From assembly GCA_015231795.1 (NCBI GenBank), contig JADGAX010000001.1, positions 620,001-684,000 of the forward strand: DNA of 64,000 nucleotides, written 5' to 3'. Numbering within the stretch: position 1 is the first letter of the stretch; every line of letters begins with the position of its first letter. Below, in pieces: positions 8,537 through 39,548 of the stretch. The DNA is from Alphaproteobacteria bacterium (GTDB taxonomy: Bacteria > Pseudomonadota > Alphaproteobacteria > Rhodospirillales > WMHbin7). Position numbers and translations under genes: made by a program. Below the pieces are notes generated by a model that saw only the letters and a program-made list of their open reading frames with translations, was not told where the DNA came from and made no database searches.

Positions 8537-10102
8537 ATGAGCCAGAGGGAAATCCAGGGAATGACAAAGCCGAACAAGAAGGCTACCCAGTCGGCTGCTC
8601 GGCGCCATGTTCCTGTAACAGACACCGAATGTATTCTTGATGTTCTTCCTGATCCGGTCGTATTGATCGACGGCTCAGGCCTGGTCAGGCTTGCCAACGC
8701 CGTCTTCGAGCAATTGTTCGGCTGGACGAAATCGGAAATATTGGGGCTGCCTCTTTCCTTGCTGATGGCCCATTCGGAAGCGGCGGCCCGCGAAATCGCG
8801 CCAAGCGGCTATGTTCATAAGGAGCACGGCCACTGTTTGATGCGTTCCAGACCCATCCTGGCGGCGCGCAAAAGCGGGCAGTTGTTTCCTGCCGAACTGA
8901 CGATCAGCGAATTTCACCAGGGTGGCAAAACCGGATTCATCGGCGTTTTCCATGATATGCGCCGGATTGACGAGGCCAGAAAAGCCCTGAACGACAATCA
9001 AGAGCGTTTCGCCCTGGCCCTGTCTGGCACCAATGAGGGAATTTGGGACTGGGATCTGCAAAGCGGACTTGTCTTTTACTCCGAGCGCGTGCGCGACCTT
9101 TTCGGTCTTGAGCGCAGCGTCGGCACAACGAACGACTGGCTGGCTTGCGTTCATGCCGATGACCAGGTTCATTATCTTGCCGCCGTCAGGACCCACCTGA
9201 AGGGCGAAACGCAATTCCTGAACATCGACTACCGCTTGGCGGGCAACGAGCGGCGCTGGGTTCGCCATCGCGGCCTGGGGCTGCGCGACGGGAGCGGACG
9301 CGTGTTCCGCATGGCGGGATCGGTGGGCGACATCACGGAAACCAAGCTGGCCGAAGTCAAACTTCGCGACACATTGGCCCAGGTCGAGGCGGCCAACCGG
9401 GCCAAGGCGGATTTCCTGGCCGCCATGAGTCATGAATTGCGCACCCCCCTTAACGCCATCATTGGCTTTTCCGAGATGATTCACGGCCAAATTCTGGGGC
9501 CGGTCGGCACCCAAAAATACGTCGAATATGCAAGCGACATCATGGTTTCGGCCCGCCATCTGCTGGAAATCATCAACGACATTCTGGAAATGGCCCGCCT
9601 GGAGGCCGGACAGACGGAATTCCGACCGACTCTGATCGACATGACGACGGTCATCGAAACTTCCCTGCGCCTGTTGCACCAGCGGATTTCGCATTCAGGC
9701 CTGACGCTGGCCGCGAAGATCGCGCCAAATCTGCCGCCGATCCTGGGCGATGAGCGGCGCTTAAAGCAGGTGATGATCAATCTGTTGGGCAATGCCATCA
9801 AATTCACACCCAAGGAAGGGCTGATCGTCGTCGAGGCCAAGCCCGTGCTGGACGGCAGGCTGATGGTGCGCGTCATCGATTCCGGGGTCGGCATCGCCGA
9901 GCGCGACATTCCAAGGGCGCTGGCCCCCTTCACCCAGGTCGACAGCGTCGTGGCGAGACGCTACCAAGGATCGGGCCTTGGCCTGCCGCTTGCCAAGGCC
10001 TTCGTCGAATTGCATGGCGGGAATCTGGAATTGTCCAGTATTCTGGGCAAGGGGACGACGGTCACCCTGTATTTCCCGGCGCAACCACAACACCCGCAAT
10101 GA
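8537..10102 (+). CDS. PAS-PAS sensor histidine kinase (soluble)
   Basis: 521 aa without TM segments, so a cytoplasmic sensor. PAS domain 1 (about 30-145) and PAS domain 2 with a PAC extension (about 155-270, GIWDWDLQSG, YRLAGNERRWVRHRG) precede a coiled linker, a HisKA helix with the phospho-acceptor His in [15 protein letters not shown] (about residue 297) and a HATPase domain with DERRLKQVMINLLGNAIKF, DSGVGIAERD and GSGLGLPLAKAFVELHGG. No receiver domain and no adjacent response regulator, so an orphan kinase. Its TGA overlaps the ATG of the next gene, coupling them. Signal unknown; no haem or flavin motif can be asserted. Confidence 0.9.
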   Translation: MSQREIQGMTKPNKKATQSAARRHVPVTDTECILDVLPDPVVLIDGSGLVRLANAVFEQLFGWTKSEILGLPLSLLMAHSEAAAREIAPSGYVHKEHGHCLMRSRPILAARKSGQLFPAELTISEFHQGGKTGFIGVFHDMRRIDEARKALNDNQERFALALSGTNEGIWDWDLQSGLVFYSERVRDLFGLERSVGTTNDWLACVHADDQVHYLAAVRTHLKGETQFLNIDYRLAGNERRWVRHRGLGLRDGSGRVFRMAGSVGDITETKLAEVKLRDTLAQVEAANRAKADFLAAMSHELRTPLNAIIGFSEMIHGQILGPVGTQKYVEYASDIMVSARHLLEIINDILEMARLEAGQTEFRPTLIDMTTVIETSLRLLHQRISHSGLTLAAKIAPNLPPILGDERRLKQVMINLLGNAIKFTPKEGLIVVEAKPVLDGRLMVRVIDSGVGIAERDIPRALAPFTQVDSVVARRYQGSGLGLPLAKAFVELHGGNLELSSILGKGTTVTLYFPAQPQHPQ

Positions 10103-11100
10103 ATTCAGCCTTTCGACTTGCCACATTCAACCTTGAAAATCTGGACGCGCGCCCAGAGCATGCGGGCGGCGCAAGCCTGGATGAACGGCTTTGCCTTTTG
10201 CGTCCGCAACTGGAACGCCTGAGCGCCGACATCTTGTGCCTTCAGGAAGTGAATGCCGAGGAAATCGTCAAGAATGGCGAGCGCCGGGCGCTCGCACTCA
10301 CCCGCCTGATCGACGGCACGCGATACCAAGCCTATCACCTGGCGTTCAGCCGAAACCGGGCGGGAATCCGCATGGCCGACCGGCACAATTTGGCCATTCT
10401 GTCTCGCTTTCCCATCTTGGAAGAGCGCCAGATTTGGCACCATCTGGTCGCCCCCTTGCGCCATTTCGCGCCCCATGCTCCCGACGCCCCGCTGCCGGTC
10501 GAGTGGGACCGCCCGCTTTTGCATGTCAGGCTGGATCTGGGAAGCGGCGCCAATCTGCACGTCCTTAACCTGCACTTGAAAGCGCCCAGGGCTTCCTTTG
10601 TCGAGGGAGCCAAGGAGAACCCGGACCGCTGGAAGAATGTGCAGGGCTGGGCGGAAGGATTTCATCTGGCGTCGGTCAAACGTTCGGGCCAGGCCCTGGA
10701 AGCGCGCCTTGTCGTCGATGCCCTGCAAGACGCCGACCCGCAAGCCCTGATCGCGGTGGCGGGCGATTTCAACGCCCAGGACAACGAAACCCCTTTGCGG
10801 CTTTTGCGCGCCGAGGCCGACGACACCGGCAACGCGCATCTGGCCGCCAGATCGCTGGTTTCCCTGGAGCGCGGCTTGGCGGAAAGCCAGCGCTTCTCGG
10901 TCATCCATCACGGCAGGCCCGCCATGCTGGACCATATCCTGGTTTCCAGACCCTTGCTGGGCTGGGCCAGGGACATTGCCGTCCATAACGAGGCCTTGGG
11001 CGACGAGGCCATTTCGCCCGCTCTGATTCCGGCGACCGGCGAAAGCTATCACGCCCCCTTGGTCGCCACTTTTCAAGCGCCCGAAAAAGCCAAGGCGTGA
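10099..11100 (+). CDS. Endonuclease/exonuclease/phosphatase-family protein
   Basis: 333 aa with the EEP fold signatures in order: TFNLENLD (Asn), LQEVNAEEI (catalytic Glu), GDFNAQDNETPL (Asp/Asn) and the terminal LDHILVS (Asp-His). It could hydrolyse phosphodiester or phosphomonoester bonds in nucleic acid, lipid headgroup or inositol phosphate; the substrate cannot be read from sequence. No signal peptide, so cytoplasmic. The start overlaps the histidine kinase stop by four bases (ATGA). The methyltransferase gene follows after 12 bases, so the three may be one operon. Confidence 0.82.
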   Translation: MNSAFRLATFNLENLDARPEHAGGASLDERLCLLRPQLERLSADILCLQEVNAEEIVKNGERRALALTRLIDGTRYQAYHLAFSRNRAGIRMADRHNLAILSRFPILEERQIWHHLVAPLRHFAPHAPDAPLPVEWDRPLLHVRLDLGSGANLHVLNLHLKAPRASFVEGAKENPDRWKNVQGWAEGFHLASVKRSGQALEARLVVDALQDADPQALIAVAGDFNAQDNETPLRLLRAEADDTGNAHLAARSLVSLERGLAESQRFSVIHHGRPAMLDHILVSRPLLGWARDIAVHNEALGDEAISPALIPATGESYHAPLVATFQAPEKAKA

Positions 11101-33363: not shown

Positions 33364-33885
33364 TTAGAAGGGAATCTCGTCGTCGAGATCGCCGCCGCCC
33401 GGAGGAGGACGATCCCAGCCCGCAGAACCCGATCCGCCGCGCGCCCCGCCCGCCGACGACGGCTGCGAGGGCTGGCCGTAGGAACCTTCATCGAAATCGT
33501 CGCCACCCGCAGAAGCGCCGCCGCCACCGCCGCCACGCGCATCCAACAGGCCCAACTCGCCCTTGAAACGGCCGATCACGACCTCGGTCGTGTATTTCTC
33601 GTTGCCGTCCTTGTCGGTCCATTTGCGGGTTTGAAGCGCCCCTTCGACATAGACCTTCGAACCCTTCTTGCAATAGCGCTCGGCGATGTCGGCCAGATTC
33701 GGGTTGAAGATGACGACGCGATGCCACTCGGTCTTTTCCTTGCGCTCGCCCGACTGGCGATCCTTCCAAGATTCCGAGGTGGCGATGTTCAACGTGACGA
33801 TCTTGTCGCCGCTTTGGGCGTTGCGCACCTCGGGGTCGCGCCCCAGATTGCCGATCAACATCACCTTGTTCACGCTGCCCGCCAT
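33364..33885 (-). CDS. ssb: Single-stranded DNA-binding protein
   Basis: 173 aa. OB fold (1-112) starts [21 protein letters not shown] and contains [19 protein letters not shown] and [15 protein letters not shown]; then a Gly-rich disordered linker and the invariant acidic tip DLDDEIPF that recruits repair and replication partners. The start has a GGGGAGAGAAAG SD. In many proteobacteria ssb adjoins uvrA; here a two-gene cassette separates them. Confidence 0.97.
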
Positions 33886-34062: not shown

Positions 34063-35523
34063 ATGACGGAAGAAGCAGAAAAAAAAGACTATATATCGGA
34101 AACAAAGTTCTTTCGAATCGGCAATGCTCCAAAACTTATATTTTTAGCTTTCGTAATAACTGGCTGTTCTATAAGTTTACTCTTTACATATAAGGTAATA
34201 GTTCCGCCAAACGAGTACATACTAATTATTCTTCTATCGGTATTTGTTGCTTTCCAGGCCGCAATTTCTTTTATAATACACCGCCGTCATCGGAAAAAGA
34301 ATCCCCAGGACCATATCAACACCCCCTTCAATCCCTATCTGGCGGCAGACGAAAGCTATTATCTGGGCTTCATGTTCACGATGACTTCCCTGGCCATAAC
34401 GGCCCTTTGGGGGATCGGGAACAACGGTCTAAACCCCACAACGCTCGCCCAAACGCTGATCCAATCGACCGTGGCGCTGACCACGACGATCACAGGCCTG
34501 ATTGCCAGACACATTTTTCTTGCCTTCCTGCCCGAGCCGAACACGGCCATGGAGGAATGCTGCGACAAGATCGTCCAGGCGCTGGGCGTGGGTCCCGATG
34601 AAGTGGTCAAGGCCAGCCAAGCGGCGGCAGCGGCCATTCAAAAGACAACCGGCCAGATGGCCGTGAATTTCGAGGCGGTTACCACATCCGCCCTGGAATT
34701 GAACACGCAATTCGGGACATTGAAGGCGTCTGTTGGAAACCTTGAGACCAGCGTCAATCAAAGTGCTGCGAACACGGTCAAACGGCTTTCCGAGGCCACC
34801 GGCGATCTAGACCGCACGATGGAAAGCGCCAAGATCAAAATCACCAAATTCGAAAGCGAGATCGGCGACACATTGGCCGGGAAGCTGACCGAAGCCCTGG
34901 ATGTGAAATTGTCCGACTTCTCGGCGCTAGTCACCCGTTTCGAAAAAGAAATCAATGACCTGCCCAATCAGATCGGCAAGCATCTGACCGCTACCGACCG
35001 CGGCCTTGCCGAATATGTCGCAGGCCTTAAGGATCAAGTGGCGGCCTTTGTCTTGCAGGAAAAATCCAAGGTCCTCACGCCAATCACGGAACTGGCGAAA
35101 GAACTGAAGAAGAAAATGAAGGAATTCAGCGACACGTCCGAAAGATCGCAAACCGAATTTTCCGAACAGATCAAAGCGATCACCGATATCTGCCGCAACC
35201 GCGCCGAGGCCGTCTTCGCTTCGAACGAAAAGCAGATCAACGCATCGACGGACAGCCTAAGGGGCATTCTGACAGCGCTTGACGCCGATATGCGGACACG
35301 CATCAACGAAGCGATTCTGGCCCTTAAAAGCGTCTCCGACACTTATGCCGGAGCGGTCGCCGAAAACGCCAGTTCGAAGAACGAGGAGCTTAGGAAGCTC
35401 AAAGACGCCGCTGCCGAAATCGACGACAAGGTCAAAGGACTTTATGAGGTCTATAGCCTTCTTTACGATAAGAGCACGCCGGAGAAGAGACCTCCGCCCC
35501 ACAGCAGGGGCGATAAAACGTGA
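34063..35523 (+). CDS. MotA/TolQ/ExbB-like membrane protein with long coiled-coil tail (ZorA-like)
   Basis: 486 aa from ATG 34063 (GGGGGCAAGGAA upstream). Four TM helices: about 24-44, 52-72, 100-118 and 129-156. TM3/TM4 (LGFMFTMTSLAITALWG, then PTTLAQTLIQSTVALTTTITGLIARH) follow the MotA/TolQ/ExbB pattern LGxxxTxxxLxxxL...ALxTTxxGLxxA. Residues 160-486 are a heptad-rich helical tail (ATGDLDRTMESAKIKITKFE, KELKKKMKEFSDTSERSQTE), as in ZorA. The first 240 bases are AT-rich, unlike flanking ssb and uvrA. The GTGA overlap with the next gene indicates a coupled pair, probably an ion-driven stator-like complex. Family match is by eye. Confidence 0.7.
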   Translation: MTEEAEKKDYISETKFFRIGNAPKLIFLAFVITGCSISLLFTYKVIVPPNEYILIILLSVFVAFQAAISFIIHRRHRKKNPQDHINTPFNPYLAADESYYLGFMFTMTSLAITALWGIGNNGLNPTTLAQTLIQSTVALTTTITGLIARHIFLAFLPEPNTAMEECCDKIVQALGVGPDEVVKASQAAAAAIQKTTGQMAVNFEAVTTSALELNTQFGTLKASVGNLETSVNQSAANTVKRLSEATGDLDRTMESAKIKITKFESEIGDTLAGKLTEALDVKLSDFSALVTRFEKEINDLPNQIGKHLTATDRGLAEYVAGLKDQVAAFVLQEKSKVLTPITELAKELKKKMKEFSDTSERSQTEFSEQIKAITDICRNRAEAVFASNEKQINASTDSLRGILTALDADMRTRINEAILALKSVSDTYAGAVAENASSKNEELRKLKDAAAEIDDKVKGLYEVYSLLYDKSTPEKRPPPHSRGDKT

Positions 35524-36623
35524 GCGACGCCCTCGTCCGTTCGAAATCGCTGCTCGACAATACGCTGATGGAGATTCTGGTCTTTCTGCTTTTCATCAGC
35601 TATGTGGCCTATTCCAACGACGACAAATCCGTCCGCGCCATTCCGGTTACCGGGCCGCTCAAGCCATCCTGCCTCGTGCGCGACAACACGACATACGAGC
35701 CTGTTCCGCTCGTCGAAATCGAAGCCGTCGAGAAAGGTTTGCTCATCAAGAAAATCAATCTCCCGCCATCCGGCGGCGGCTATCAAAGCCACCCCCTGTT
35801 CAAGGACATCCCCACCAACATTGCGCTTCGCGAAGGGGACTTCATCACGCCGGACCTTGCGAAAAAGATCGCCGTGTTGGCTGAGAACACATCTCTGAAC
35901 ATATCTGATCCAAAAGTATCATCACCGGCCACGCCCACCCAATGCGCCTTCTATTCAAGGATATTTAAAGAAGAGAATTCTTCAAAAAAGGATAAGCCTG
36001 ATTCCAAAAAGGATATGTCTGATCAAGAGCGCTTTCTGCTTCAGCATTTCGAGACCTTGAAGCAGATTGACGAGGCCTTGCCCTTCACCAGCCCCCACAT
36101 GAAGGACGATGCCGTCGTCACGGCGCTCATCAAATTCATCCAGAGCGCCGACGACGGCACGACCGCCTGCCTGCAACTACGGGACAATAAAGAAGGGATT
36201 GGATGGGTTGGCACCGCTGAGTACGCCCCCAAGGAAAAGTCAATGTGGCGTCTCAAGCCTGAGAAGATCGATTTGAAACAATGGGCAGTCAACCCGAAAC
36301 TGATGACAGGTGAAATCACGATAGAAAACAGTGTGATCAATCTTTCCGAACTGCCAGCATATCTTCATAGGGTCGGACTGAAAGAATGCGTTCTCCATGT
36401 GGAATTCGTGCCAAAGCTCTCAACCGTCTTGAAGAGCAGCCCAGAGATTGCGCTAAACGTTCTAGCAGCGCGCTACAATATTGGCATCCAAGACCCCAAC
36501 AACCAAGATTTCCCCCGCTTCAAACCCACTTCCCAGGGCATCAAAGCCAAGCCTCCGCGTGATAATAAGGCAAAAAGCAAGAACGCCCAGACCAGCGACA
36601 AGAGCAAGCAGAGCAAGGGATAA
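35520..36623 (+). CDS. Single-TM partner of the motor-like protein (ZorB/ExbD-like N-terminus)
   Basis: 367 aa beginning at GTG 35520, overlapping the upstream stop (GTGA). The N-terminus SLLDNTLMEILVFLLFISYV places an Asp (residue 13) at the cytoplasmic entrance of one TM helix (14-31), as in MotB, ExbD, TolR and ZorB where this Asp carries the proton or sodium ion. The remaining 330 residues would be periplasmic. They include two Cys (SCLVRDN, TQCAFYS), a Lys/Ser-rich insert (EENSSKKDKPDSKKDMS) and a Lys-rich disordered tail. A canonical OmpA peptidoglycan-binding domain is not evident. Partner assignment follows from order, overlap and the TM Asp. Confidence 0.65.
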   Translation: MSDALVRSKSLLDNTLMEILVFLLFISYVAYSNDDKSVRAIPVTGPLKPSCLVRDNTTYEPVPLVEIEAVEKGLLIKKINLPPSGGGYQSHPLFKDIPTNIALREGDFITPDLAKKIAVLAENTSLNISDPKVSSPATPTQCAFYSRIFKEENSSKKDKPDSKKDMSDQERFLLQHFETLKQIDEALPFTSPHMKDDAVVTALIKFIQSADDGTTACLQLRDNKEGIGWVGTAEYAPKEKSMWRLKPEKIDLKQWAVNPKLMTGEITIENSVINLSELPAYLHRVGLKECVLHVEFVPKLSTVLKSSPEIALNVLAARYNIGIQDPNNQDFPRFKPTSQGIKAKPPRDNKAKSKNAQTSDKSKQSKG

Positions 36624-36719
36624 GGACAGAGCAAGATACGGAACATAACATGAACATGTGGGCTTTTCAATAAGTCATTTCACTTTATGCCGCCTCTAAA
36701 AAGGGCTATCCAATTGGCC

Positions 36720-39546
<2,827 letters not shown>

Positions 39547-39548
<2 letters not shown>

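Follow-up and report, generated by a model that had tools for sequence, protein, structure and literature searches.

What is the two-gene element that lies between ssb and uvrA in an alphaproteobacterial genome of the WMHbin7 lineage (assembly GCA_015231795.1), and does it form a self-contained machine? The window analyzed here is a stretch of 64,000 nucleotides (contig JADGAX010000001.1, positions 620,001 to 684,000) of this 3.6 Mb genome, hereafter G000, which was compared with three congeners (G001, G002 and G003). An initial annotation of the window had likened the two genes to ZorA and ZorB of the Zorya anti-phage motor and had also considered a distinct two-component motor. On balance, we judge it probable that the pair is the motor half (component c as ring, component d as axle) of a split four-part envelope machine, with defence as its most likely role. 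The kinship of gene 1 with motor proteins is fairly well supported by profile comparisons; its rotation, stoichiometry and role in defence we infer. It is most suitably classified as a divergent representative of an unnamed family of ZorAB-like motors.

Architecture of the gene pair

The two open reading frames (ORFs) were found on the forward strand at 34063-36623, as initially annotated, and a GTGA overlap joins them in the same orientation. Their features are listed below in window coordinates (TM, transmembrane; HMM, hidden Markov model; AF2, AlphaFold2; aa, amino acids).

34063..35523, + strand: gene 1, putative motor-type membrane protein with a long cytoplasmic helical tail (component c); ORF from ATG at 34063 to the stop at 35523, 486 aa; hold-out HMM and profile similarity
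34126..34299, + strand: predicted TM1 and TM2 of gene 1, residues ~22-45 and ~52-79; hydropathy and low-confidence AF2 helices
34333..34419, + strand: predicted TM3 of gene 1, DESYYLGFMFTMTSLA, with T106 (34378-34380) invariant in 14/14 rows; alignment
34444..34524, + strand: predicted TM4 of gene 1, VALTTTITGLIARHI, with T142 (34486-34488), G145 and R149 invariant in 14/14 rows; alignment
34540..35520, + strand: tail of gene 1, predicted long amphipathic helix, residues ~160-486; periodicity and coiled-coil type library matches
35520..36623, + strand: gene 2, putative single-TM partner (component d); ORF from GTG at 35520 to the stop at 36623, 367 aa; partner position and TM register
35550..35612, + strand: predicted TM helix of gene 2, residues ~11-31, LLDNTLMEILVFLLFISYVAY; ORF translation and hydropathy
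35571..35573, + strand: E18 of gene 2, proposed ion-carrying acid, in the Glu column of d proteins; alignment
35556..35558, + strand: D13 of gene 2, the candidate acid of the initial annotation; alignment
35655..35966, + strand: Cys-bounded domain 1 of gene 2, C51...C142, resembling the SCW...CRF domain in some d proteins; hhalign
36153..36410, + strand: second Cys-bounded stretch of gene 2, C217...C290, with no detectable similarity to domain 1 or the SCW domain

For gene 1, hydropathy analysis gave three TM segments with the standard cut-off and a fourth, TM3, once the cut-off was lowered; for gene 2 it gave a single segment (residues 11-29), and the rest of that protein would form the extracytoplasmic part in the membrane orientation that we propose for the pair. 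The helical tail described for gene 1 was recovered as an amphipathic sequence with a periodicity of 3.63 residues (power 255, compared with at most 88.5 in 200 shuffles), and the AT-rich 5' end of the pair was likewise evident (GC 0.46, compared with ~0.62 in the flanks). Judged by dN/dS values of 0.22 and 0.28 between G000 and G003 (dN and dS, nonsynonymous and synonymous divergence), the two ORFs behave as maintained genes. Scans for promoters and terminators returned sites no more frequently than in shuffled sequences.

Gene 1 is homologous to component c of an unnamed operon family

An HMM built from 11 c proteins encoded outside the ssb-uvrA site, with the copies at this site held out, detected gene 1 with an E value of 1.8e-11, and detected the corresponding copies in G003 and G002 with E values of 2.7e-10 and 2.6e-6, respectively, all scaled to the whole genome. 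By this sequence criterion, gene 1 is homologous to c, which stands third in an unnamed operon of Alphaproteobacteria with the conserved order a, b, c, d. Component a has ~480 aa and four TM segments; component b has ~280 aa, one TM segment and what we take to be a VWA-like domain, a label based on its D-x-T/S-D motif, and a library scan of three b proteins gave no significant match. Component d combines one TM segment with either an OmpA-like domain or a Cys-bounded SCW...CRF domain, and for L068, L069, L070 and L073, half of the eight plasmid loci inspected, RefSeq gives it the name 'OmpA family protein'.

The 31 loci found via c comprise 29 with a, 29 with b, 30 with d and 20 with a thermonuclease (SNase) gene; the HMM seeds (9 for a, 8 for b and 8 for SNase) belong to these 31 loci and so match by construction. 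This tally leaves out the copies at the ssb-uvrA site, L065 (same genes as L064) and L047 (a 103-residue c fragment in G343); it counts both near copies L038 and L039 and excludes an SNase fragment match at L040. L046 begins and L045 ends at a contig end, so genes missing there say little. The SNase gene stands beside the operon in 15 of the 20 loci, where its product appears by eye to have a signal peptide, and is fused to the C-terminus of d in the other five (L037 at 9341-10807, L042, L043, L049 and L066); the fused protein of L037 has the order TM, OmpA-like, SNase. Independent names agree with this assignment, namely RefSeq 'thermonuclease' in L007, L008, L068, L069, L072 and L073, and Pfam SNase above the cut-off in L008 and L037.

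The family has a patchy distribution. As a single query, gene 1 matched in 4/100 relatives; a further survey gave matches at E values up to 1e-4 in 16/199 relatives; a six-row profile of its core matched in 28/385 genomes of the class, of which 12 are strong (E <2e-6) and 16 weak (E >1e-4), and matches were found in 8/398 genomes of the phylum, all of the same class (G000 is counted in each figure). Three of nine weak-match loci inspected from the survey of 199 relatives show the GLxGTV motif of MotA/ExbB proteins. Neither gene 1 nor the c protein of one relative matched any phage in the searches made with them, and a search of genome contigs with gene 1 yielded 44 stretches fitting the pattern, one of which was confirmed, in Rhodospirillaceae bacterium LM-1 only. 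The c protein of one relative matched 24 plasmid records from Rhizobium, Paracoccus, Sinorhizobium, Microvirga and Tistrella, eight of which were inspected. An example is the operon RL_RS31080-RL_RS31100 on plasmid pRL11 of Rhizobium johnstonii 3841, in which c is RL_RS31090 and d is RL_RS31095. No description of the a-b-c-d operon was recognized in the literature, as represented largely by titles and the openings of abstracts.

With regard to genes near the operon, PADLOC matched an OLD-type gene at L040 (13259-15301), and TerY, PP2C, STK_OB and an HNH enzyme at L041 (14241-17547 and 1500-2465). In addition, two IMG/VR contigs listed as viral (L052 and L053) carry the four-gene operon with a thermonuclease gene, and L053 also has umuDC-like genes by eye. 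Two distinct family copies occur in genome G062 (L048 and L129), the a and b models matching nothing at L129. Genome G229 holds both a ZorA above the NCBIfam cut-off (L166, counted with its frame neighbours) and a member of the a-b-c-d family (L044).

Gene 2 is a candidate d protein with a conserved glutamate

From its position, its TM register and a weak domain match, we infer that gene 2 is the d protein of the pair. In an unforced alignment, the TM segment of gene 2 (LLDNTLMEILVFLLFIS) lines up with that of d proteins (GLTMAEIMLLLVF), and the E18 column is Glu in 15/15 rows, a count taken from this alignment since the tally script chose d TM segments by seeking Glu. The same Glu is present in six further plasmid d proteins and is kept in all three pairs found at the ssb-uvrA site. 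The initial annotation had pointed to an Asp at the membrane entrance; D13 is indeed present in gene 2, but its column is Gly in 12/13 and Ser in 1/13 of the rows from outside the site, and Asn in G002, where E18 stays. The ion-carrying acid is thus probably Glu18 rather than Asp13.

Over its full length, the C51-C142 domain resembles the Cys-bounded domain seen in d proteins (score 25.1 by hhalign, P 7e-4, 0/200 column shuffles, but a probability of only 26%). The second Cys-bounded stretch showed no similarity to the SCW domain (35/200 shuffles), and the idea that it repeats domain 1 was dropped because no similarity was detected. PADLOC, NCBIfam and PHROGs returned nothing for gene 2, and its single Pfam match was at chance level (E 0.068). 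No OmpA-type domain was found in it by Pfam at E up to 1 or by a purpose-built OmpA HMM, and searches with gene 2 against plasmids and viral contigs, and with its Cys domain against plasmids, gave no matches. Beyond the motor operon, the SCW...CRF domain is present in further proteins (L079, L080, L081 and L082), with a gene for a multi-TM protein nearby in L079, L081 and L082.

Divergent a and b genes lie at a second locus

In G000, a first profile search located both a and b (contig C3, 207.2-209.2 kb); it recovered only a in G003 and only b in G002. Scanning these regions with greater sensitivity then added the b gene of G003 and the a gene of G002. The E values in G000, G003 and G002 are 2.3e-10, 1.2e-8 and 3.2e-5 for a, and 1.5e-7, 6.3e-4 and 9.9e-13 for b, respectively. 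In all three pair-bearing genomes, the two genes are adjacent on one strand with a 4-base overlap, and lie between genes named by eye as Hsp20-like and 5-aminolevulinate synthase, with other genes intervening. The alignment of b is collinear across the whole protein, and on these profile matches the second-locus genes are homologous to a and b. They are more divergent than their surroundings: a is 89.3% identical (dS 0.81) and b 69.7% (dS 0.95), compared with 98% (dS 0.33-0.36) for the flanks.

Since G000 also carries divergent a and b members of this four-gene family, adjacent to each other at another locus, the pair is probably not a two-component system, contrary to one proposal of the initial annotation. 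The absence of a further partner is true of the ssb-uvrA locus and probably does not hold genome-wide. SNase was matched neither within the window nor within a 16 kb stretch that surrounds the second G000 locus. A link between the pair and the SNase genes of the genus was considered and rejected, since all four congeners, pair-less G001 included, have such genes. On the opposite strand beside a and b lies a multi-TM gene (L177 9161-10150 in G000 contig C3, L178 9282-10100 and L179 9509-10651), which is poorly conserved between G002 and the other two genomes and whose G000 and G002 copies have no Pfam match; it may be a fifth component.

The membrane core of gene 1 resembles motor proteins

Profiles of the gene 1 core were compared with five ZorA proteins and with 29 PF01618 proteins from G000 and its relatives. 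The controls were 60 block shuffles, in which the pattern of hydrophobicity is approximately preserved, and protein a, an unrelated four-TM protein. The 14-row family profile scored 33.5 against ZorA (0/60 shuffles), 22.1 against PF01618 (2/60) and 19.2 against protein a (8/60). The three copies from the ssb-uvrA site alone scored 25.3 against ZorA (0/60), 25.7 against PF01618 (0/60) and 17.9 against protein a (4/60), which bears out the initial description of a motor-type A/B pair. It is therefore fairly well supported, from profile similarity, that the core is of the ZorA/MotA/ExbB kind, special nearness to ZorA being seen with the combined profile only.

Membership in Zorya itself, by comparison, finds no footing in the libraries. 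The NCBIfam ZorA model (NF033914) gives gene 1 25.1 bits, with a cut-off of 190, in the tail only, and the PADLOC and NCBIfam ZorA matches (best E 1.4e-6) are confined to tail residues 160-465. We rejected these matches as evidence of ZorA, since coiled coils of many kinds match the same region in the Pfam, PADLOC, NCBIfam and PHROGs scans. Because the matches cover the helical tail only, the link to Zorya made earlier cannot be founded on them.

The ssb-uvrA site holds divergent pairs

The neighbours of the pair, which are outside the system, and the right limit of the insert are as follows.

33364..33885, - strand: ssb, left neighbour, 98.8% identical in G003
36640..36686, no strand: uvrA-proximal intergenic block, right limit of the insert, also present by visual comparison in G001, where the site is empty
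36687..39548, + strand: uvrA, right neighbour, 97.0% identical in G003

In G001 the junction is empty (165 bp, no pair), and G000, G003 and G002 hold three different pairs at the same site and in the same orientation. The view that a usual ssb-uvrA neighbourhood has been interrupted stands insofar as the insert varies among congeners and is absent from one of them; the neighbourhood itself is common, not universal, with uvrA adjoining ssb within 1.5 kb in 7/17 relatives. Between G000 and G003, genes 1 and 2 are 58.9% and 52.5% identical, with dN 0.34 and dS 1.50 for gene 1 and dN 0.43 and dS 1.52 for gene 2; ubiA, ssb and uvrA in the flanks have dS values of 0.36-0.40, about four times lower than the pair. 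Between G000 and G002, the pair is 21.5% and 24.1% identical with dS near saturation, whereas uvrA is 95.7% identical. Because quick amino-acid change alone would not raise dS, we read the raised values as exchange of alleles, or new acquisition, at a fixed slot.

Proposed mechanism and competing explanations

If the pair is the motor half of a split envelope machine, several gene 1 subunits, by analogy five, would enclose a dimer of gene 2. Ions would pass a ring of threonines (T106 and T142), carried by Glu18 of gene 2. A disturbance of the envelope, sensed by the Cys domains of gene 2 together with VWA-like b, would start or gate the motor, and the gene 1 tail of ~330 residues would carry a signal or torque into the cytoplasm. 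The role would be defence at the envelope against phage or other incoming DNA, perhaps plasmid. Defence is suggested because of the patchy presence, the carriage on plasmids, the exchange of alleles, the link to a nuclease and the neighbours, and a defence role at the envelope would fit the replacement of alleles at a fixed slot.

More tentatively, and as a possibility about which we remain doubtful, the family may constitute a separate class of envelope-defence motor: a Glu-driven, ZorA-like ring and axle with sensing by a periplasmic VWA-like protein and by Cys domains, which in many relatives would control a periplasmic thermonuclease cutting DNA as it crosses the envelope. The window would then hold a nuclease-free split form, with motor alleles swapped at a fixed slot and a and b at a second locus. 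If this is true, it would be a second family with such a core, with a different ion acid and different partners, implying that such motors have been recruited more than once, and the apparently periplasmic nuclease of the relatives predicts action on DNA in the periplasm. The presence of the family on plasmids of studied rhizobia makes these proposals genetically testable.

Several results weigh against the reading of the pair as half of a defence motor. The HMM check of gene 1 suggested by the initial annotation was negative: Pfam gave no MotA_ExbB (PF01618) match at E up to 1, and a PF01618 scan of G000 listed four other loci and not gene 1. AF2 confidence is low (pLDDT, a per-residue confidence score, 49 for residues 1-270 of gene 1 and 36 for gene 2). 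Taken alone, the 11 other c proteins score 23.7 against ZorA (2/60), 19.5 against PF01618 (7/60) and 17.5 against protein a (13/60); hhalign probabilities are 30% for the family against ZorA and 5-6% for the three slot copies, and reversed profiles score up to 22.0. The statement that the core is nearer to ZorA than to TolQ/ExbB, true of the 14-row profile, fails for the three slot copies alone and was abandoned. For gene 2, neither a hold-out TM profile of d, too short a profile, nor a plain Cys-domain HMM (E 0.14) gave a significant match, and the partner acids of MotB, ExbD, TolR and ZorB are Asp, so that a Glu is unusual. The OmpA matches in the relatives' d proteins lie below the Pfam cut-off (E 2e-4 to 6e-3), and the PADLOC matches concern five of ten operon neighbours picked by eye with no background rate. 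No nuclease or known effector was found at either G000 locus. Finally, a and b were not found in pair-less G001 by the first profile search, which missed two of the six genes present elsewhere, in a genome that is 87% complete.

Some of these observations suit a motor of the Tol/Exb kind that conveys ion-motive force to a partner in the periplasm or the cell wall and serves envelope maintenance, transport or stress response rather than defence. Such a motor would account for slot copies that score no lower against the PF01618 set than against ZorA, for the OmpA-like d of relatives and for a PBP1A gene near the pRL11 operon; the window locus has no effector, and the SNase could be a scavenging enzyme. 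Patchy presence (12 strong matches in 385 class genomes and 8 in 398 phylum genomes), plasmid carriage, replacement of alleles at the slot and an empty congener, however, ill suit a housekeeping function, and we consider this explanation rather unlikely.

A membrane-anchored coiled-coil scaffold or mechanosensor through which no ions pass would be compatible with the lack of an accepted Pfam motor match, the weak structure models, the low hhalign probabilities and the indirect link between gene 2 and d. We regard it as quite improbable in view of the Thr residues invariant in both TM3 and TM4, a Glu conserved within the TM segment of the partner, profile scores exceeding those of every shuffle, and a MotB-family match, below the cut-off, in the d protein of one relative (NF006508, E 1.2e-5). 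Least credible is an orphan or degenerate Zorya that kept ZorA and ZorB and lost ZorC, ZorD and ZorE: the 14-row profile is nearest to ZorA and the long tail and A/B gene order agree with it, but relatives recognizable in sequence form a separate operon with other partners, the ZorA score is far below its cut-off, Glu replaces Asp, the slot copies stand as close to PF01618 proteins as to ZorA, and G229 has both a ZorA above its cut-off and a family member, which makes this origin highly improbable.

Comparison with known systems

To our knowledge, Zorya is the sole motor-type anti-phage system; its ZorA has an additional beta-sheet within the cytoplasmic domain. The pair studied here resembles ZorA and ZorB in being an A/B pair, in having a putative multi-TM ring subunit with an apparently similar TM3-TM4 and a long helical cytoplasmic tail, and in having a single-TM partner (gene 2) with a predicted extracytoplasmic part. 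It differs in the family partners, which are a and b, with SNase in many relatives, instead of ZorC, ZorD and ZorE; in a Glu, by alignment rather than structure, where ZorB has a conserved Asp; and in that gene 2 has no OmpA-type match and gene 1 stays below the ZorA cut-off. Between ssb and uvrA there are two genes only, with no ZorC, ZorD or ZorE, a result confined to this interval because no search for them was made in the remaining genome. Membership in Zorya is thus not supported. For ZorAB, a published account describes a 5:2 assembly with a bundled ZorA tail and a critically conserved Asp, and reports that ZorB binds peptidoglycan and that the tail, ion flow and binding all matter for defence (PMC11890865). 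Generic ion transporters carry widely differing extra domains, and ZorAB is only distantly related to them (PMC12505986).

MotA/MotB, TolQ/TolR and ExbB/ExbD share with the pair the plan of a ring subunit and a one-TM partner, and the slot copies score 25.7 against the PF01618 set; the pair departs from them in the tail of gene 1 and its lack of a PF01618 library match, in the Glu acid and in the operon partners. As for the pRL11 operon, gene 1 is homologous to RL_RS31090 by the sequence evidence above, and gene 2 matches RL_RS31095 in position and TM register. Unlike that operon, the G000 set is divided between two loci, neither of which yielded an SNase match, and gene 2 carries Cys domains and no OmpA domain.

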